NCBI GenBank assembly: GCA_002694685.1
Contig: NZMW01000001.1
Coordinates: 682,001 to 746,000 of the forward strand
Direction: 5' to 3'
Length of the DNA: 64,000 nucleotides
Source: Balneola sp.
GTDB lineage: Bacteria > Bacteroidota > Rhodothermia > Balneolales > Balneolaceae
Position numbers and translations under genes: made by a program. Below the pieces are notes generated by a model that ran no database searches, was not told where the DNA came from, and saw only the letters and a program-made list of their open reading frames with translations. This document shows positions 33,933-43,563 of this stretch, piece after piece (positions within the stretch are counted from its first letter, which is position 1; every line of letters starts with the position of its first letter).

Positions 33933-34129
33933 TTTTCCTTCCTATTTAATTAGTGTTTAATAAACCTGATTCCTTGTTACCCCATGAATCACAGTCAATT
34001 AACTAATTTTATAAATCATGCACAATTCTCCTAATAATAAATGCCGAATAATCACTTTTAGAGGATCAAGCTTTTGCTCAAGATTTCTTACCTTCTGTCT
34101 CATAAAGATCATTGAACAAAATCAGTAGC

Positions 34130-35029
34130 ATGAAATATCCTGATTTCAACCAAACGATACCCATCGATAATGTTGGAGTTGAAGAACGAGTATCCAGGTT
34201 GAACAAACGCAGTATCAAGAAAGAATCAAAAGTTCAGGCTTTAAAACTCGCCTTGAGCATGATTGATCTGACCACCCTGGAAGGAAAAGATTCGCCAGGG
34301 AAAGTCATCCAGCTTTGCAAGAAAGCAAAACAACCTCATCCTTCTATGCCAAACCTGCCTACTGTTGCAGCGGTATGTGTGTACCCAAGTATGGTTGGTA
34401 TTGCCAAGAAAGAACTTAAAGGAACAGATATCAACGTAGCGAGTGTGGCAACAGCTTTCCCAAGTGGACAGGCTCCTCTTTCTATGCGACTTGAAGATAC
34501 CAAGTTTGCCGTTTCTGAAGGTGCTGATGAAATTGATATGGTTATTAGCCGTGGTGCCTTTTTGAAAGGTGACTTCGAATTAGTTTTCGATGAGATTGCA
34601 GCCGTCAAAGAAGCCTGCGGTGATGCTCATTTAAAAGTGATTTTAGAAACCGGCGAACTTCACACTTATGAAAATGTTCGCAAAGCCAGCGATTTAGCTA
34701 TGCATGCCGGGGCTGACTTTATAAAAACCTCAACCGGGAAAATGAGTCCTGCAGCCACACAACCTGTAACCTTGGTAATGCTGGAAGCCATTCGTGATTT
34801 TTATTACGAAACTGACAAGATGATTGGCATGAAACCAGCCGGTGGAATAAGAACTGCGAAACAAGCTATCCAATATCTGGTTATAGTAAAAGAAACACTA
34901 GGTGCTGCCTGGCTTAATAACGAATATTTCAGATTTGGAGCCAGTTCCTTGACTAATGATTTGCTCATGCAGATCGTGAAACAAGATACCGGCAATTACC
35001 AATCACTTGATTATTTTTCTGCTGATTAA
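34130..35029 (+). CDS. deoC: Deoxyribose-phosphate aldolase
   Basis: About 299 residues from ATG 34130; the 18-nt extension to a TTG is not supported. It cleaves 2-deoxyribose-5-phosphate to glyceraldehyde-3-phosphate and acetaldehyde. Motifs: MIDLTTLEGKDSP near residue 45, VCVYPSMVGIAKKEL near 88, EIDMVISRGAF near 140, HLKVILETGEL near 170 and the Schiff-base lysine in FIKTSTGKMSP (about K199). The class is the longer eukaryote/Bacteroidota-type enzyme. The two aldehyde dehydrogenase genes 11 and 18 nt downstream could handle the acetaldehyde released. Confidence 0.93.
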   Translation: MKYPDFNQTIPIDNVGVEERVSRLNKRSIKKESKVQALKLALSMIDLTTLEGKDSPGKVIQLCKKAKQPHPSMPNLPTVAAVCVYPSMVGIAKKELKGTDINVASVATAFPSGQAPLSMRLEDTKFAVSEGADEIDMVISRGAFLKGDFELVFDEIAAVKEACGDAHLKVILETGELHTYENVRKASDLAMHAGADFIKTSTGKMSPAATQPVTLVMLEAIRDFYYETDKMIGMKPAGGIRTAKQAIQYLVIVKETLGAAWLNNEYFRFGASSLTNDLLMQIVKQDTGNYQSLDYFSAD

Positions 35030-35040
35030 AAAAATATCCT

Positions 35041-36546
35041 ATGTCTAACAACACAGAAACTAAAGACGCACCGTACAAACCGACCTCCCCTAACTCAAAA
35101 TTAGATTTCGAGTCAGTTTGGGAATACGCTCCTGCCCCGCAAAGTTCTGACTTTGTAGAAGTTAAAGAGCAGTATAATCTCTTTATTGGCGGGAAATTTG
35201 TAAAGCCCTCTAAAGGCCGATATTTCAAGAGTACGAATCCCGCTACGGAAGAAGAAATAACTGAGTTTGCAGAAGCCACTCAAAAAGATGTGGATAATGC
35301 CGTAAAAGCGGCTCGAAAAGCTTTTGAAGGAGAATGGTCGCGCATTTCAGCTAAAGAGCGTGGGAAATATCTTTACCGAATTGCACGTATGCTTCAGGAA
35401 CGTGCTCGGGAGTTTGCCGTACTTGAATCGATGGATGGCGGAAAGCCAATTCGGGAATCACGCGATGTTGACATTCCTTTAGTAGCAGCCTACTTCTTTT
35501 ATTACGCCGGCTGGGCCGACAAGCTGGAATATGCTTTCCCCGGTAAAAAACCGAAACCACTGGGAGTATGTGGACAGATCATCCCTTGGAATTTTCCTTT
35601 ATTGATGCTCGCTTGGAAAATAGCTCCTGCCCTCGCCTGCGGAAATACCGTTGTATTAAAACCAGCTGAAACGACCTCCCTGACCGCTCTTAAGTTTGCA
35701 GAACTTGTGAAGGATTGTGGCCTTCCCGACGGAGTTATCAATATAGTAACCGGAGCCGGTCAAACAGGTGCTGAGATTGTTAACCATAAAGATATTGACA
35801 AAGTAGCCTTCACCGGTTCTACCAATGTCGGAAAGATCATTCAAAAATCACTCGCGGGAACTGATAAAAAGTACACTCTTGAATTGGGTGGAAAAGGCGC
35901 CCTCGTTGTTTTTGAAGACGCTCCTATTGATCAGGCTGTGGAAGGTATTATTAATGCCATCTACTTTAACCAAGGTCACGTTTGTTGTGCCGGTTCGCGA
36001 TTATTGGTACAGGAAGGTGTGGCAGATAAAGTTATCGCCAAGCTAAAAGATAGACTGGAAACGCTGATTGTTGGTGATCCTTTAGACAAGAATACCGACA
36101 TCGGTGCCATCAATTCTAAAGAACAGTTTGAAACCGTAAATAAATATCTTGAATTGGGTGTTGAGGAAGGCGCAGATGTCTACCAAAGTAAATGTGATAT
36201 CCCGGAAAATGGATATTTTATTCGCCCTACTCTTTTCACGAACGTATCACAATCAAATCGCGTAGTTCAGGAAGAAATTTTTGGACCTGTGTTAACAGTT
36301 CAAACATTCCGTACAGCCGATGAAGGTATCGAAAAAGCCAACAATACCCCTTATGGTTTAGCTAGTGGCGTATGGACGGATAAAGGCTCTAAGATTTTCA
36401 AAATGGGCAGCAAGATGAGGGCCGGAGTTATCTGGGCTAACACCTACAATAAGTTCGACCCAACCTCACCATTTGGCGGCTACAAAGAAAGTGGTGTGGG
36501 ACGCGAAGGCGGTCTCCACGGATTAGCTGCTTACACAAAAATTTAA
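35041..36546 (+). CDS. Aldehyde dehydrogenase
   Basis: A 501-residue NAD(P)-dependent ALDH. Motifs: LFIGGKFVKPSKGRYFKSTNPATEE near residue 41, CGQIIPWNFPLLML near 177, VAFTGSTNVGK near 256, catalytic Glu in LELGGKGALVV near 280, nucleophile C315 in QGHVCCAGSR, and EEIFGPVLTVQTF near 415. It is full length. It sits 11 nt after deoC, so acetaldehyde or another aldehyde from deoxyribose is a likely substrate. It may pair with the truncated ALDH-like protein encoded next. Confidence 0.92.
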   Translation: MSNNTETKDAPYKPTSPNSKLDFESVWEYAPAPQSSDFVEVKEQYNLFIGGKFVKPSKGRYFKSTNPATEEEITEFAEATQKDVDNAVKAARKAFEGEWSRISAKERGKYLYRIARMLQERAREFAVLESMDGGKPIRESRDVDIPLVAAYFFYYAGWADKLEYAFPGKKPKPLGVCGQIIPWNFPLLMLAWKIAPALACGNTVVLKPAETTSLTALKFAELVKDCGLPDGVINIVTGAGQTGAEIVNHKDIDKVAFTGSTNVGKIIQKSLAGTDKKYTLELGGKGALVVFEDAPIDQAVEGIINAIYFNQGHVCCAGSRLLVQEGVADKVIAKLKDRLETLIVGDPLDKNTDIGAINSKEQFETVNKYLELGVEEGADVYQSKCDIPENGYFIRPTLFTNVSQSNRVVQEEIFGPVLTVQTFRTADEGIEKANNTPYGLASGVWTDKGSKIFKMGSKMRAGVIWANTYNKFDPTSPFGGYKESGVGREGGLHGLAAYTKI

Positions 36547-36564
36547 CTGCACAGAATTTCGATT

Positions 36565-37434
36565 ATGTCTGACCAAAGAATTGACGTTAAAAAGACTTAC
36601 AAAATGTATGTGGGCGGTAACTTCCCCAGAAGTGAATCCGGACGGACCTACAAAGTATTTGATAGCGATAAAAACTTAATCGCAAATGTATGCCAAGGCT
36701 CCCGAAAGGATTTTCGGGATGCGGTTAGAATTGCCCGCGGTGCTTTTGGAGGATGGAGTTCACGAAGCGCCTATAATCGTGGACAAATTCTATATCGAAT
36801 AGCTGAAATGCTGGAAGATCGACGGGATCAGTTTATGCGAGAATTGGGTCCTATCGGTTTTAAAACAGCTGAAGCAGAAGCTGATATCAACGCTTCTATA
36901 GACCGACTTATTTATTACGCAGGCTGGGCTGACAAGTATCAGCAGGTGTTTGGTTCAATAAATCCAGTAGCTAGTTCTCACTTTAATTTTAGTATGCTTG
37001 AGCCAACCGGTGTGGTTGCAGCATTCGCTCCAGAAAAAAGTCCACTTTTGGGATTAGTCTCAACAATAGCTCCTATTATTGTTGGTGGAAATACGTGTAT
37101 CATATTAGCCTCTGAAGATTACCCGCTACCTGCAATGAGCTTCGCTGAGGTTTTAAACTCCTCGGATGTTCCCGGTGGAGTAGTTAACATTCTTTCCGGA
37201 AAACGTGAAGAATTAGCGGAACATTTCAGTACTCATATGGATGTAAATGCAATGTTATACACTGATAAACTTCCAAAGGAAATGAAAAAGCTGATTGATG
37301 AAAATGCTTCACTAAATGTGAAACGTATTATCAAAAAGCCTATTGAAGATTGGTACTCCGAGGAAGCACAATCTCCATATTTACTGACCGACTTCCAGGA
37401 AACTAAAACTACCTGGCATCCCGTTGGATTTTAA
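36565..37434 (+). CDS. Degenerate aldehyde-dehydrogenase-like protein without the catalytic domain
   Basis: A 289-residue protein homologous to the N-terminal, NAD-binding half of ALDH: MYVGGNFPRSESGRTYKVFD, GPIGFKTAEAEADINASIDRLIYYAGWADKYQ, LEPTGVVAAFAPEKSPLLGLV. The catalytic Cys region and the whole catalytic domain are missing and the usual GFTGS nucleotide motif is replaced by NAMLYTDKL. The ORF has no frameshift and ends in its own sequence (QETKTTWHPVGF), so it looks like a maintained subunit rather than debris. It is 18 nt after the full ALDH. Inference: a structural or regulatory partner of the active enzyme. Confidence 0.8.
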   Translation: MSDQRIDVKKTYKMYVGGNFPRSESGRTYKVFDSDKNLIANVCQGSRKDFRDAVRIARGAFGGWSSRSAYNRGQILYRIAEMLEDRRDQFMRELGPIGFKTAEAEADINASIDRLIYYAGWADKYQQVFGSINPVASSHFNFSMLEPTGVVAAFAPEKSPLLGLVSTIAPIIVGGNTCIILASEDYPLPAMSFAEVLNSSDVPGGVVNILSGKREELAEHFSTHMDVNAMLYTDKLPKEMKKLIDENASLNVKRIIKKPIEDWYSEEAQSPYLLTDFQETKTTWHPVGF

Positions 37435-37443
37435 AACACATTC

Positions 37444-37983
37444 ATGAAATATCTTACCATACTTTTATTAATTGCAGGTGCAATAGCTTGTTCTTCTTCC
37501 GAGCAGGTCATTAACGAGACTTTAGAAGAGGCTAAAGAAAACTTCCAGACCGAATCTAAAAACCTTCCTTCCAATCTGAGTTTAGAAAGCTTACGTACTC
37601 AGTTATCGGATGCCTATACTTATCGTGATAACAAAATTCCGGAAGCCTTCAATAGAGTTAAAGTTGAAGAAAAGGTGGAACGGGATCTTTACGAAGGCTA
37701 TAGGATTCAAATTTATTCCGGACAAAGTGTGATTGCAGCAGACACATTGGCTGCTAATTTCCGTGTTTGGGCAGATAGTACAGTTGTCGGTTACCAACCT
37801 GATACCTATACATTTTTCAGAACTCCATATTATCGGGTACACGTTGGTGATTTTCACGAGCGAGAACGTGCCATCTCATTTTCCAATATTGTAAAGCGGT
37901 ACTTTAAGGATGCTTGGGTTGTCTATGACAGAGTTAATCCCGCAAGTGTACCTGCTGATACTGCTGTTATTGAAACTCAGTAG
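37444..37983 (+). CDS. SPOR-domain lipoprotein
   Basis: A 179-residue lipoprotein: signal with lipobox AIACS (Cys about residue 16), a helical stretch, then a SPOR domain from about residue 88 (YEGYRIQIYSGQSVIAAD ... FFRTPYYRVHVGDFHERERAI ... FKDAWVVYDRV). SPOR domains bind denuded septal peptidoglycan. It lies 9 nt after the ALDH-like gene and 37 nt before the cupredoxin gene; which operon it belongs to is unclear. Confidence 0.85.
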   Translation: MKYLTILLLIAGAIACSSSEQVINETLEEAKENFQTESKNLPSNLSLESLRTQLSDAYTYRDNKIPEAFNRVKVEEKVERDLYEGYRIQIYSGQSVIAADTLAANFRVWADSTVVGYQPDTYTFFRTPYYRVHVGDFHERERAISFSNIVKRYFKDAWVVYDRVNPASVPADTAVIETQ

Positions 37984-38020: not shown

Positions 38021-38773
38021 ATGGCACGAATATTAGTGGTAGGTTTAATTTCTTTTTTATTTACCTCAGTCGGGCCCTTACCTGTTGAAAATTATACCGA
38101 TTCTACGACATCGCTCAATTTAGTCTATGAAGGGAGTACGCTATCGGGCACCATCACTCTTCCCCCCACAAACAATACTCAGCGTACATTCCGGGGCAGC
38201 GCTTATCGAGATAGAAGAACTTCAGGTTCAAGCAGCTCTACAGGTAGTGGAGAATCAAACCCACTACTTAATACCATAATCAGCCTTCACCCTACTTCCT
38301 ACGAAATGTCGTCAACTGAACCTTCTGAAACACCCTCTGTGGTTAATCAGGAGAACGCTACTTTTGTTCCTCATGTAACTCCGGTAATTGTAGGATCTAT
38401 AGTTGAGTTCATTAATAATGACTCTTTCTATCATAATGTATTTAGCCTGACACCGGGCGCAAAATTCAACATTGGCCGAAGACCAACTGGCGACGTGTAT
38501 TCAAAAGAAATTCCCAAGACCCAGTGGAAAGTTGAAGGTCTGGGTGAAATTCAGCTTTTCTGTGATATTCACTCCTCCATGAATGCTGTAATATTGAGTT
38601 TGGACACCCCCTACTTTCAACGAGTAAGTGAGGATGGTACTTTTGAGATAAAGGATCTCCCCGCAGGCACCTATGAGCTCAGAGGATATAACCCGAACTT
38701 TGAAATAGCTTCAGAAGAAGTTACACTCGATGGTGAAACTAATATCACTGTAGATCTTAATTTTATGAACTAA
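38021..38773 (+). CDS. Exported cupredoxin-like protein with CarboxypepD_reg-like tail
   Basis: A 250-residue exported protein (signal about 1-22). A Ser/Thr/Gly-rich stretch near 70-85 is followed by a plastocyanin-like domain: PVIVGSIVEFINNDSFYHNVFSLT with His about residue 138, and QLFCDIHSSMNAVIL with Cys, His and Met ligands about 181, 184 and 187, i.e. a type 1 copper site. The C-terminal 50 residues (GTFEIKDLPAGTYELRGYNP) match a carboxypeptidase-regulatory-like beta-sandwich. Similar proteins are annotated methylamine-utilisation-like. The stop TAA overlaps the start of the cyclase gene by one base. Confidence 0.85.
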   Translation: MARILVVGLISFLFTSVGPLPVENYTDSTTSLNLVYEGSTLSGTITLPPTNNTQRTFRGSAYRDRRTSGSSSSTGSGESNPLLNTIISLHPTSYEMSSTEPSETPSVVNQENATFVPHVTPVIVGSIVEFINNDSFYHNVFSLTPGAKFNIGRRPTGDVYSKEIPKTQWKVEGLGEIQLFCDIHSSMNAVILSLDTPYFQRVSEDGTFEIKDLPAGTYELRGYNPNFEIASEEVTLDGETNITVDLNFMN

Positions 38774-40470
38774 TGTTTAAAGGCCTCAACATACAAACCA
38801 AGCTCTTCCTGTTGTTGTCGGGCCTTACAATATCTGTTCTCTTTGTTGTATTAGTGGCAGTAAATCAGATTTCTTCAAGTACTATTGAGCAAAAAGTGCT
38901 GCTAGATTTTAAGCAGCTACAAAGCTTTTTTAAGAACCAGCAAGCACTCAGGTATGACCGGCTTGCTGAGTCGGCAAGCCTAATTGGTGAGAATTCTACT
39001 TTTAAAGGAAATGTTCAAACTGAAGATCCGGCTACAGTAGCTTACAGTGTTGGTGAGTTTGCCAATTTCACTAAAACCGATCTTTTTGTAGTTACTGATG
39101 AAGATGGATTGGTTCTGGCTTGGCTAGATAAGCCCGATAGAGCGGGCCGGGATATATCTGAAGTGATAACGGTAGAACAAGCCATGCTCGGTTACTATCC
39201 CGATCTTGAGCCGGAATGGCCGTTCTTGTGGGAAGTTGATGATAATTTATATCAAATTGTTTCGGTTCCAATTTATGCCGGCAATAGGATCATCGGCACC
39301 CTGACCCTTGGTACCGTACTCGAAGACATTGAAGCAAAACAGTTAAAACAGCAGACTCCTCTCGATATCGTACTCTTCATGGATGAAAGTATTATCGGCT
39401 CCTCGAGTCCTATTTATGAAGAAAGTGAATACGAACAGATAGCACGAGAAAACGGAGCGTTAATTGACTCTATGATTGCCAAGAGTACGATAAGTGATCC
39501 CTTTCGATTTAAAATCAATGATGAAGAGCAGCTCTCATTTATAAGTCCCCTTGGCATAGGAGAACGTGCTTATTATGTAGCTACGGTTCCAATTTCGAGA
39601 GAATTTCAAGCCCTTTCAAGCATTCAGAGAAACATTATCATTATTGCAGCTATTAGTTTCTTCATCATTATTCCCATAGCGATATTTTTGGGAAGTATTA
39701 TTTCAAATCCCATAAACCGGCTTACCCAAGCAATGCTGAAGGTGGAAGATGGAGACCTCAATGTATCTGTTGAAACCCAATCAAAAGATGAAATTGGGAT
39801 GCTTACGCGTGCTTTTAATAAAATGATTATAGGACTCAGAGAACGTTTTGCACTTACCAAATACGTAGGAGATCATACACTCCAAATGATTCAAACCAAT
39901 GCAGACCAAACTGTTGGTTTAGGAGATGCCACTACCCAAAATCTGGCCATTTTATTTACCGATATCCGCGGGTCCACTTCAAAGATTGAGGGTTCAAAAC
40001 CGGATGAATTTATAAACATGCTGAATGAAACTTTGGGAGCACAGTCACAGATTGTACTTCAGAATAATGGATCTATTGACAAATTTGTAGGTGATTCAGT
40101 CATTGCGTTATTCAGTGGAGATGATGCTGTAGAACGGGCCATTAGCGCTGCTATCGGCATCCAAAGAGATTTTAGAAATAATAAACGTATTAACTCCTAC
40201 TTCGAAGGAATTGGGGTTGGAGTAAACCATGGACCGATGCTTTTAGGGAATATGGGAGCTAACGAGAGGCTTGACTATACTGTAATTGGCTCTGAAGTCA
40301 ACCTTTGTGCAAGGCTCTGTTCAGAAGCTAAAGTTGGACAAATACTTATCACAAAAAAACTAGCCGATTCCTTCAATTTAGCTGCTTATCATAGTTTGGA
40401 AGATGTTAATGCCAAAGATCTAAAAGGATTTTCTAATCGTATCGATATCGTTGAGGTAAACTATGAGTAA
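38773..40470 (+). CDS. Membrane-bound class III adenylate/guanylate cyclase with Cache-like sensor and HAMP
   Basis: A 565-residue signalling protein. TM1 about 12-32, a periplasmic Cache-like sensor to about residue 285 (FVVTDEDGLVLAWLDKPDRAGRDIS, PIYAGNRIIGTLTLGT), TM2 about 290-312 (NIIIIAAISFFIIIPIAIFL), HAMP about 313-365 and a class III cyclase domain about 385-560. Metal-binding Asp residues are seen in AILFTDIRGSTS and FVGDSVIALFSG; the transition-state region reads YTVIGSEVNLCARL. Output is cAMP or cGMP; substrate choice was not determined. It is genetically fused in expression to a cupredoxin and a porin (1- and 8-nt overlaps), so it may sense redox or copper state. Confidence 0.88.
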   Translation: MFKGLNIQTKLFLLLSGLTISVLFVVLVAVNQISSSTIEQKVLLDFKQLQSFFKNQQALRYDRLAESASLIGENSTFKGNVQTEDPATVAYSVGEFANFTKTDLFVVTDEDGLVLAWLDKPDRAGRDISEVITVEQAMLGYYPDLEPEWPFLWEVDDNLYQIVSVPIYAGNRIIGTLTLGTVLEDIEAKQLKQQTPLDIVLFMDESIIGSSSPIYEESEYEQIARENGALIDSMIAKSTISDPFRFKINDEEQLSFISPLGIGERAYYVATVPISREFQALSSIQRNIIIIAAISFFIIIPIAIFLGSIISNPINRLTQAMLKVEDGDLNVSVETQSKDEIGMLTRAFNKMIIGLRERFALTKYVGDHTLQMIQTNADQTVGLGDATTQNLAILFTDIRGSTSKIEGSKPDEFINMLNETLGAQSQIVLQNNGSIDKFVGDSVIALFSGDDAVERAISAAIGIQRDFRNNKRINSYFEGIGVGVNHGPMLLGNMGANERLDYTVIGSEVNLCARLCSEAKVGQILITKKLADSFNLAAYHSLEDVNAKDLKGFSNRIDIVEVNYE

Positions 40471-41659
40471 ATATTTCGGCCTTATTATTTTTGTTCTTTA
40501 TGCTTTCGCACCAGCTATTTTAGTAGCACAGGTTCAGGTGAATGGTACGATTGATGTCGCCTTTACTGCCGGAGGCGAAGATTCTAAATTCATTTCAAAT
40601 GGCATAAACCAAGAGTTTAAGAATCCCCATATTTCTATTCCCCAAGTTAATTTATTGATGTTTGCTCCCATCAATGAATCTTTCTTTGTTGAAGCTCGGC
40701 TTCAGTCTGATACCTGGGGAACCGGACAACTAAGTATGCCTCGCTTTACACTGGCAAATTTGACGTGGGCTAAACCAGATAATAACTATTCCCTGAGTTT
40801 TGGCCGCTTTATTTCGCCCGTTGGTAAGTACTCTAGCCGGAGTTTAAATATTGACCGCACATTCGTAGACCTTCCTCTCAATTACAGCTATTTCATAAAT
40901 ATCTCTGATGAACGAGGTTTCTGGCCTAATGCCGGAGATCAGGGCAACTACACTTCCGGCGATGTCGGGCTGACAAACATCTACTTTGGAGGCTATTCTA
41001 CAGGTGCTTTGTGGGATTGGTCGATTAAGGATGACAAGCTGAGGCTACAAACCGCCATAACGATGGCAGCTCCAGCATCTGATCAAAACTACACAAATCT
41101 AAATAATGCAGCGGTTCAAAGTCACTTGACTTACAACCCTAACATCTTTTGGGAACTTGGGCTTTCAGCTAGTTATGGAGGCTTCATGCAAAGCAGTCCA
41201 AGAAACGCAGCTTTACAGACCGACAATCCTTTTGAGCAGTATAAACAAGCTCTTGTTGGCTTGGATGTCCGATACTCCTTCGCTTTTGTTGAAATTATTG
41301 CAGAGGGTATTTTCAGTCGGTGGAATGTTCCTTGCTATACAGGCGGGCAGTTTAATTTTTATGGTAGTGAATTAGCAGAATACAGAACAACAAACGCCGG
41401 GGTAAATGTAGATTTTAAATATGAGCCCCCCTTCCTTCCCGGTTCATACGCTGCTCTAAGAGTTGAACATTTAAGTTTTTTAACAGCAGAAACTGATAGT
41501 GCTTCCTTATCATCATGGGACGATGATGTATCAAGGGTATCAGCCGTAGTTGGCTATAAGTTAGCACGAAATGTAACCGCTAAGGTCTCTATAAGTGACC
41601 AATCTCCCCTCGATCAGTCATTGTATGCAGTAAGGTTTTATTTGAGTGCTTTTTTCTAG
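40463..41659 (+). CDS. Outer-membrane porin-like beta-barrel protein
   Basis: A 398-residue exported protein (signal about 1-22, ending ILVAQ). The mature part has amphipathic beta-strand periodicity with many aromatic girdle residues (FFVEARLQSDTWGTG, NYSLSFGRFISPVGKYSS, VSAVVGYKLARNVTAKVSI) and ends AVRFYLSAFF with terminal Phe. It resembles phosphate-selective-porin or DUF-type barrels with a GRF...P.GK.S loop. It overlaps the cyclase gene by 8 nt, so it is part of the same operon. Confidence 0.78.
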   Translation: MSKYFGLIIFVLYAFAPAILVAQVQVNGTIDVAFTAGGEDSKFISNGINQEFKNPHISIPQVNLLMFAPINESFFVEARLQSDTWGTGQLSMPRFTLANLTWAKPDNNYSLSFGRFISPVGKYSSRSLNIDRTFVDLPLNYSYFINISDERGFWPNAGDQGNYTSGDVGLTNIYFGGYSTGALWDWSIKDDKLRLQTAITMAAPASDQNYTNLNNAAVQSHLTYNPNIFWELGLSASYGGFMQSSPRNAALQTDNPFEQYKQALVGLDVRYSFAFVEIIAEGIFSRWNVPCYTGGQFNFYGSELAEYRTTNAGVNVDFKYEPPFLPGSYAALRVEHLSFLTAETDSASLSSWDDDVSRVSAVVGYKLARNVTAKVSISDQSPLDQSLYAVRFYLSAFF

Positions 41660-41696
41660 GCGGACAAAAGCCTTACGAAAATTCAGTAAACCAAAC

Positions 41697-42290
41697 ATGA
41701 CAATGGATAGGAAAAGATTTCTTAAAGCTATTCCAGTTATCGGAGTGGCTGGTGGATTAACCCTCACCGGATGTAGTACAGGTACCGGAAATGACGACAT
41801 AAACGTATCAGGTGATGTTGCAATTCTGATGGAAGCAGCAGAACGTGAAGCTGTAGCAATACAGTCGTACAATGCAGCTGCTGAATCAGGTCTCATAAGT
41901 ACCCAGGCGGTGCTTGATAGCGCTGTTCTTTATCGAGATCACCACACTGAACATCTCAATATATTCAACCAATTGATTCTGGAAGCCGAAGGTCAGCAAG
42001 TAGAGCTTTCTAACTTTGGGCCTGACCCACTGGTTAGTAATTTGAATGAGAACTCGTCTGAATCTGATGTTATTCGCCTTGCTATGACTTTAGAGTTGGA
42101 AGCAGCAAGAGCCTACTTTGCGCAATCAACGATAGAACTTCAAAGTCCAAGTGCCCGTCAGCGAATGGGAGAAATCTTCCCTGTTGAAGTTGCCCACTTC
42201 GTTACCTTGAATGCGGCGTTAGGAGAAAACCCAAATATAGCGGGCGCCTCTTTAAGTGCCCTAACTGAAGCTTTTACTCCTTTTTCTTAG
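41697..42290 (+). CDS. Ferritin-like-domain lipoprotein
   Basis: About 197 residues from ATG 41697 (or 41703). The signal MDRKRFLKAIPVIGVAGG resembles a Tat-like KR leader and ends in lipobox TLTGC. The mature four-helix domain has the diiron pattern: Glu in AAEREAVAIQSYN, DHHTEHL, then LELEAARAYFAQ and VEVAHFVTL. All expected carboxylate/His positions are present, so metal binding is likely. The role may be periplasmic iron or oxidant handling. It is 37 nt after the porin gene and completes the cupredoxin-cyclase-porin-ferritin cluster. Confidence 0.8.
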   Translation: MTMDRKRFLKAIPVIGVAGGLTLTGCSTGTGNDDINVSGDVAILMEAAEREAVAIQSYNAAAESGLISTQAVLDSAVLYRDHHTEHLNIFNQLILEAEGQQVELSNFGPDPLVSNLNENSSESDVIRLAMTLELEAARAYFAQSTIELQSPSARQRMGEIFPVEVAHFVTLNAALGENPNIAGASLSALTEAFTPFS

Positions 42291-42420
42291 TAGTACACTC
42301 TTCATTGACAAGATACTTTTTCTAGTTCCGTACGGTTCGCACAAATAACTGAGACAAAGCTAAACTTTTTGGTTATTATTACGAACAAACGCTAAATATG
42401 AATTTAGATCAGTTATAGCA

Positions 42421-43563
42421 TTGGGTTTAAAAAACGAAGCACAAACCGGTTACGGAACAAAGAAATTCTATCAGGATTATGTATCTGGAATGAGCCGGGA
42501 GAGATTCTCTAAAGAGCTGACCGCAGATACTGAACGACTAAAACTGGTTTACAAAGAGGCCGTCGAAGACATTGAGCGGCAACAAGGGCAGCAATTACCG
42601 GGACATATCAAAATGCTCCGGCTTTTCTCTGATCTTGCCCAACGCCTGAACCCTACCCGCCGACTTATTTTTGGAATGGGTTCAATAAGCTTCGTCAGTT
42701 ACTACATTTTGAACTTTCTGGATATCATTCAGTATTTCATAATTGGAGATTTACTCCTCCCCTTTAGCTTTTTGAGCATGTTTATGCTTTTACTTATCGA
42801 GTTGCTTGAAAAATCTGATGTACAAAAAGAAATAGACCTGGCTCGTGAAATTCAGCTCAGTCTACTTCCGGGAACCTCCCTCAGCAAGGATAACTTAGAA
42901 GTCTATTCTTTTGCCCATACCGCTAAAGAAGTCGGCGGTGATTACCTCGATGTAATTGAAACTGAACAAGGCACTTATGTGATTATTGCTGACGTATCCG
43001 GTAAAGGCTTAAGCGCAGCTTTGTATATGGTGAGATTGCAAGCCCTGGTTAACCTTATCGTGGAGAGAGATCACCCCACCCCAAAAGAATTATTCCTTCA
43101 ATTAAATAACTATATCAAAAGTAATAGCAAGGATAAGACCTTTGTTACCGGCTGTGCCGCTTACTTTCCTAAAGATGAAGATTATTTTGAATATATCCGT
43201 GCAGGCCACAATATCCCCGTTTATTATAACAAAGAGCGAGACAATACCTTCCGGCTAAAATCCAATGGCTTTGCTCTTGGAATGACTTCGACCAAGCTTC
43301 TAGACCAAAACATGGAAGTCAAAAAATTTCACTTTAAACCGGGTGATTCCGTTCTTTTCTACACGGATGGACTTAATGAATCCCGTAATGAGCGTGGTGA
43401 GGAATATGGAGAAGAGCGAATCGATTCTTTAATGGAAATCTACGGTGCGCTTCATGCCAAAACAATTGTGGGCAAGGTACAGTCTTCACTTGAAGCTTTT
43501 ATCGGATCTGTGAGTCCACTAGACGATGTCACATTTACATGTGTACACCGTCCAGAAAAATAG
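42421..43563 (+). CDS. RsbU-type PP2C/SpoIIE serine phosphatase with membrane anchor
   Basis: A 380-residue protein starting at TTG 42421 (no clear RBS; ATG 42490 is an alternative). Two membrane helices lie at about 88-130. The phosphatase domain begins near 140 with EIDLAREIQLSLLPG, followed by metal-site motifs KEVGGDYLDV, IIADVSGKGLSAALYM, RAGHNIPVYY and LFYTDGLNESRN. Such phosphatases activate anti-sigma-factor antagonists in partner-switching systems. No anti-sigma antagonist or RsbW-like kinase was seen nearby, so the target is elsewhere. Confidence 0.88.
   Translation: MGLKNEAQTGYGTKKFYQDYVSGMSRERFSKELTADTERLKLVYKEAVEDIERQQGQQLPGHIKMLRLFSDLAQRLNPTRRLIFGMGSISFVSYYILNFLDIIQYFIIGDLLLPFSFLSMFMLLLIELLEKSDVQKEIDLAREIQLSLLPGTSLSKDNLEVYSFAHTAKEVGGDYLDVIETEQGTYVIIADVSGKGLSAALYMVRLQALVNLIVERDHPTPKELFLQLNNYIKSNSKDKTFVTGCAAYFPKDEDYFEYIRAGHNIPVYYNKERDNTFRLKSNGFALGMTSTKLLDQNMEVKKFHFKPGDSVLFYTDGLNESRNERGEEYGEERIDSLMEIYGALHAKTIVGKVQSSLEAFIGSVSPLDDVTFTCVHRPEK

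Follow-up and report, generated by a model that had tools for sequence, protein, structure and literature searches.

An amicyanin-like cupredoxin encoded beside a dCache_3 receptor in Balneolaceae: a candidate envelope-sensing cassette with exchangeable outputs

Introduction

Why should an exported copper protein, a transmembrane nucleotide cyclase, an outer-membrane barrel and a ferritin-like lipoprotein be encoded in one tightly packed run of genes? The question is posed by positions 38021–42290 of a 64,000-nucleotide stretch of Balneola sp. DNA, the whole of which we call ‘the window’. It bears on a wider problem since, to our knowledge, the signals read by most Cache receptors are unknown.

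Results

Organisation of the locus

Read on the + strand, the run opens with a predicted exported cupredoxin of 250 amino acids with an amicyanin-like copper site (38021–38773), followed by a 565-residue receptor of dCache_3–TM–HAMP–class III nucleotide cyclase architecture (38773–40470), a predicted porin-like outer-membrane beta-barrel (40463–41659) and a Ferritin_2 diiron-type lipoprotein (41697–42290); all four open reading frames share this strand and have the coordinates given in our first-pass annotation. The close packing described there is borne out by the open reading frames: cupredoxin and cyclase genes overlap by a single nucleotide (TAATG), cyclase and porin genes by eight (40463 versus 40470), and the ATG of the lipoprotein gene (41697) falls 37 nt past the porin stop. 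Missed in that first pass was a same-strand series, ending 37 nt before the cassette, that encodes DeoC, a full-length ALDH, a 289-aa short ALDH-like protein and a SPOR-domain lipoprotein (34112–37983, + strand); this is a conserved series in its own right, and we take it to be the host site of the cassette and not a member of it. The short ALDH-like protein is 72–91% identical among close relatives and its gene occurs in 84/92 family genomes, mostly without the cassette.

Conservation, gain and loss

The cupredoxin, the barrel and the sensor domain were searched for separately in 92 Balneolaceae genomes, giving 30 full-length matches for the cupredoxin, 31 for the barrel and 30 for the sensor domain alone, in each case in 25 of the 92. 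All three queries share one set of 25 genomes and 30 loci, in which the genes are always adjacent (the chance probability of this overlap being ∼5e-23, ignoring phylogeny); every family copy of the sensor domain is accompanied by both the cupredoxin and the porin. The first-pass annotation had staked its proposal on the neighbourhood being conserved and on the cyclase of relatives keeping these neighbours: the cluster survives the comparison, with the order cupredoxin–receptor–barrel on one strand in 30/30 family loci.

These loci form two paralogous clades, type A (which includes the window) and type B, at ∼30% identity. In type A the trio sits behind the DeoC–ALDH–ALDH–SPOR series in 12/12 loci, an arrangement that favours reading the genes as chance or historical neighbours, carried as passengers of a conserved operon. 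Against this, type B loci have variable surroundings, unrelated to those of type A; the surroundings in other families are again wholly different, the genes are not always in the same order, and the block comes and goes as a whole. The locus comparisons thus refute the passenger explanation, to which we attach only a very small residual probability.

Three congeners (G029, G021 and G025; loci L241, L242 and L243) are informative on the last point: the DeoC–ALDH–ALDH–SPOR series is there followed directly by genes for RsbU and transketolase, both of which the window has too, with the four genes absent. As exactly these four are missing from the same site, positions 38021–42290 represent one block of gain or loss; its base composition resembles that of the flanks, and hence bears no mark of a recent foreign insert. 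The SpoIIE/RsbU gene (42421–43563) was considered as a further member and rejected, because the congeners keep it without the cassette. Its promoter-side sequence (CTAAACTTTTT.GTTATTATTACGAAC) is nearly identical between the window and L241, as are positions 42355–42400 upstream of this phosphatase gene (CTAAACTTTTTGGTTATTATTACGAAC) in the congener, which suggests that it has a promoter of its own.

Beyond the family, a sample of the phylum yielded the trio in 12 further loci, spread over a second family of the order plus four or more additional families, with the four-gene order also found in two other families. Three of the 12 are reordered to barrel–cupredoxin–receptor, which argues for selection on togetherness as opposed to inertia. 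A search of viral contigs returned no relatives.

The cupredoxin

The copper-site stretch, from HNVF (His138) to CDIHSSM (Cys181, His184 and Met187), occupies positions 38432–38581 of the + strand. The His/Cys/His/Met ligand set is complete: all four residues are invariant in 21 diverse sequences (alignment A1), and C181-x2-H184-x2-M187 forms a loop of the amicyanin type. In the Bacteroidota set, 30/30 family members have the C-x2-H-x2-M motif plus upstream histidine, as do 37/38 of the other homologues. In Pfam the window's own protein matched no copper-protein model, returning only CarboxypepD_reg/PEGA-type matches; 13/21 relatives match Cupredoxin_1 at E ≤ 0.01, and a profile of the family searched against the PDB matched chains of copper nitrite reductase (E 9e-6), plastocyanin and amicyanin. 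The copper domain is apparently set within a CarboxypepD_reg/PEGA-like beta-sandwich, and the protein is predicted to load copper. AlphaFold2 models built from single sequences reached pLDDT values of 35.5 for the cupredoxin and 32.2 for the barrel, too low for fold or interface to be read.

The window's genome contains only one cupredoxin match, that at the cassette locus. No methylamine dehydrogenase genes were found by Pfam and homology in the neighbourhoods examined, so that the protein does not qualify as a mau amicyanin by its context; homologues annotated as ‘methylamine utilization protein’ adjoin EAL/GGDEF receptors in Comamonas and Caballeronia. As a separate observation, one Balneolaceae genome (G010) carries a cupredoxin remnant truncated right after the HNVF motif (L045:1486–1935), and no sensor or barrel match was found in that genome.

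The receptor

The periplasmic sensor domain (residues 48–229; 38914–39459, + strand) matches dCache_3 at 29.0 bits against a cut-off of 25.7, and is flanked by two transmembrane helices that were read off the sequence, not computed; HAMP follows at residues 305–356. Direct recognition of small ligands, with no partner protein, is common among dCache domains. The catalytic domain (39931–40428, + strand) matches Guanylate_cyc at 51.7 bits and retains the metal-binding aspartates (FTDIRG, VGD), the Asn/Arg motif (VNLCARLC) and the purine-specifying Lys/Asp pair (DKFVGD, DYTVIG), motifs kept in 28/28 cyclase-type relatives. From these residues we predict an adenylate cyclase, with cAMP as its product. 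The genome encodes six other class III cyclases and five cNMP_binding proteins; a scan of genome contigs with the cyclase as query gave mostly HAMP-only matches.

The barrel and the ferritin-like lipoprotein

The barrel belongs to a family of its own without a Pfam model, and gave no match in Pfam or PDB profile searches; its character as an exported barrel rests on a signal-peptide-like N-terminus and on a C-terminal phenylalanine shared by 31/31 relatives. A relationship to DUF3034 was considered and rejected, profile comparison showing the two to be unrelated, and the barrel family is not common to proteobacterial versions of the cassette. At one locus (L087:4729–7783) the barrel is duplicated in tandem and the copies flank the ferritin gene.

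The lipoprotein matches Ferritin_2 at 40.5 bits (cut-off 24.7), and its Tat-like motif (DRKRFLK) and LTGC lipobox are kept in relatives. Where present, its gene is always next after the barrel: 11 loci show this, divided among Balneolaceae and f17 (four each) and f36 (three), and all lie in one branch of the cupredoxin tree with modest support (90/76). Recurrence behind the porin in three families points to an old and often lost member; the four-gene set is probably old in this branch, with repeated loss of ferritin. The notion that the gene is incidental was rejected on the same grounds. It is a frequent accessory, outside the invariant core.

A rival reading takes the locus as an operon for acquiring or storing metal (barrel, cupredoxin and ferritin), in which the receptor's Cache domain measures the metal itself. 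The ferritin-like member of the 11 loci fits such a reading, as does the finding, in the available text of PMC13277305, that the CHASE4 domain (Cache clan) of the Pseudomonas c-di-GMP receptor PA14_37690 binds copper 1:1 and that relatives of this domain reportedly bind iron or heme. Ferritin is often absent, however, and known metal transporters, P-type ATPases and TonB receptors all fall outside the conserved set; we consider this explanation rather unlikely.

Exchange of outputs around the cupredoxin

In two family genomes (G012 and G018) the middle gene keeps its sensor, at 48% identity to those of the cyclase type, and ends in a HisKA_2 kinase. The cupredoxin, sensor and barrel trees agree (distance correlation 0.92–0.94) and the HisKA_2 loci group with type B in all three, which indicates that the output was swapped whilst the envelope parts stayed.

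Other homologues of the cupredoxin adjoin receptors of further kinds: Cache–HAMP–HisKA (L160, L162), HisKA behind a sensor without a Pfam match (L206), GGDEF–EAL (Comamonas and Caballeronia plasmids, L202, L218, L222 and others), Ser/Thr kinase (L196, L234 and L198, the last matching dCache_3 but not HAMP at the Pfam threshold applied) and, in other families, class III cyclases (L200, L233). Amongst 99 homologues examined the neighbour is a cyclase in 42, GGDEF–EAL in 11, HisKA in three, HisKA_2 in two, a Ser/Thr kinase in three and no receptor in 38. A HAMP protein lies no more than two genes away on the same strand in 30/30 family loci versus 0/273 background ORFs, in 14/37 versus 2/288 for other Bacteroidota, and in 14/31 versus 5/159 for the gammaproteobacterial sample (P = 3e-9), these being counts for loci picked for full-length matches and hence not unbiased rates.

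Individual loci deserve mention. On a Caballeronia plasmid (L111:6533–10842), a DUF3034 barrel-like protein, a truncated globin, the cupredoxin and a dCache_3–HAMP–GGDEF–EAL receptor follow in one run, the globin and DUF3034 giving the pair a redox-flavoured context. At L196:5090–9550 and L198:2384–5898 the cupredoxin adjoins dCache_3 receptors with eukaryotic-type Ser/Thr kinase ends, the former receptor being followed by a Porin_5 barrel. Two gammaproteobacterial homologues (L211:3412–6546 and L216:5992–9113) instead adjoin HEAT-repeat proteins of ∼780–793 aa, a different recurrent pairing.

Since 38/99 homologues have no receptor neighbour, the cupredoxin family is not dedicated to signalling. 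Receptor-less homologues are found in respiratory operons, with genes for a multihaem cytochrome c and cbb3-like proteins (L163:4284–8033) or COX1–COX3 (L170:6943–10265), which fits the recruitment of an electron carrier into signalling. The placement of these homologues in operons for cytochrome c and terminal oxidases also lends weight to the main rival explanation: that the receptor senses a small molecule entering via the barrel, with the cupredoxin and ferritin as co-regulated electron-transfer or metal-storage proteins that make no contact with the Cache domain and serve the response or deal with the compound. For most Cache domains the ligand is a small molecule (PMC8846402), and in Bacteroidota a barrel completes the constant trio. 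Set against this, the cupredoxin stays beside Cache receptors of several outputs, also in Gammaproteobacteria, whose loci have an unrelated barrel or none, so that cupredoxin and receptor appear to be the pair that holds together. We therefore view the small-molecule explanation as a serious possibility, albeit one with the balance of probability against it.

Survival of the cluster across loci implies that the joining of periplasmic metal or redox proteins to a signal output, as first annotated, is real; cAMP is not a constant part of it. The label ‘cAMP system’ proved too narrow, as HisKA_2 takes the place of the cyclase in two family members, and HisKA, GGDEF–EAL or Ser/Thr kinase outputs occur next to cupredoxin homologues elsewhere.

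Discussion

The cassette combines conserved linkage, joint gain and loss, intact copper ligands, intact cyclase residues and output exchange. As its function we propose envelope sensing, in which the amicyanin-like cupredoxin reports copper or redox state to the dCache_3 receptor, in the window an adenylate cyclase; we give this reading roughly an even chance. The exported cupredoxin would load copper, or be reduced and oxidised, in the periplasm, and its state would be read by the receptor's double-Cache domain, most likely via direct contact. HAMP would then pass this on to the output domain, which in the window presumably alters cAMP. Whichever metal, chelate or small redox compound matters may cross the outer membrane through the barrel, whilst the Tat-exported ferritin-like lipoprotein, in the same compartment as the cupredoxin, may deal with iron or oxidants. 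Docking of cupredoxin on Cache is suggested because these two parts stay constant and because of the copper-binding report for CHASE4; no cupredoxin–Cache fusion proteins were seen among the homologues examined.

More tentatively, and with less confidence than for the cassette itself, these loci may belong to a general receptor class in which a blue-copper protein, derived from respiratory electron carriers, serves as a redox- or copper-gated Cache ligand and outputs (cAMP cyclase, two kinds of histidine kinase, c-di-GMP enzymes, Ser/Thr kinases) are freely exchanged. Were this so, envelope electron or copper status would be read directly by second-messenger systems. For a set of receptors in at least two phyla, gene order points to a candidate signal partner: the exported copper-type protein encoded next to them. 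If the proposal is correct, bacteria would have a way to read envelope copper or redox state into cAMP, c-di-GMP or phosphorylation, and many ‘methylamine utilization proteins’ would be re-annotated as sensory partners. The partner model is open to direct biochemical test with small soluble proteins.

In keeping with the first-pass remark that no characterised system of this composition is known, full-text searches of open-access papers gave no description of the cassette. The closest parallels in principle are LuxP–LuxQ, TorT–TorS and NspS–MbaA, in which a receptor reads a periplasmic binding protein. The proposed principle, an exported protein reporting to the receptor encoded alongside, is common to these systems and the cassette, whereas the cassette's partner has a predicted copper-type electron-transfer fold, not that of a solute-binding protein, and its output class varies. 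Class III adenylate cyclases with HAMP have a HAMP-coupled catalytic domain and the Lys/Asp purine pair; catalytic domain and pair are shared by the cassette cyclase, which adds fixed cupredoxin and barrel neighbours and often ferritin. The cupredoxin shares its C-x2-H-x2-M loop and upstream histidine with amicyanin/plastocyanin cupredoxins and with GenBank entries named ‘methylamine utilization protein’; unlike mau amicyanin, it has no methylamine dehydrogenase neighbours, has its copper domain apparently joined to a CarboxypepD_reg-like sandwich and is tied to a receptor gene. Finally, the CHASE4/Cache c-di-GMP receptors PA14_37690 and PA2072, for which binding of copper, iron or heme is reported in the available text of PMC13277305, resemble the cassette in coupling a periplasmic Cache-clan domain to a nucleotide second-messenger output; they are GGDEF–EAL proteins, as opposed to a class III cyclase, and that text mentions no cupredoxin, barrel or ferritin partner. 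Each part of the cassette comes from a known family, and we class the whole as a variation on receptors that work with a partner protein in the periplasm; the set, its conservation and the exchange of outputs around the cupredoxin are what the searches of open-access papers did not turn up.
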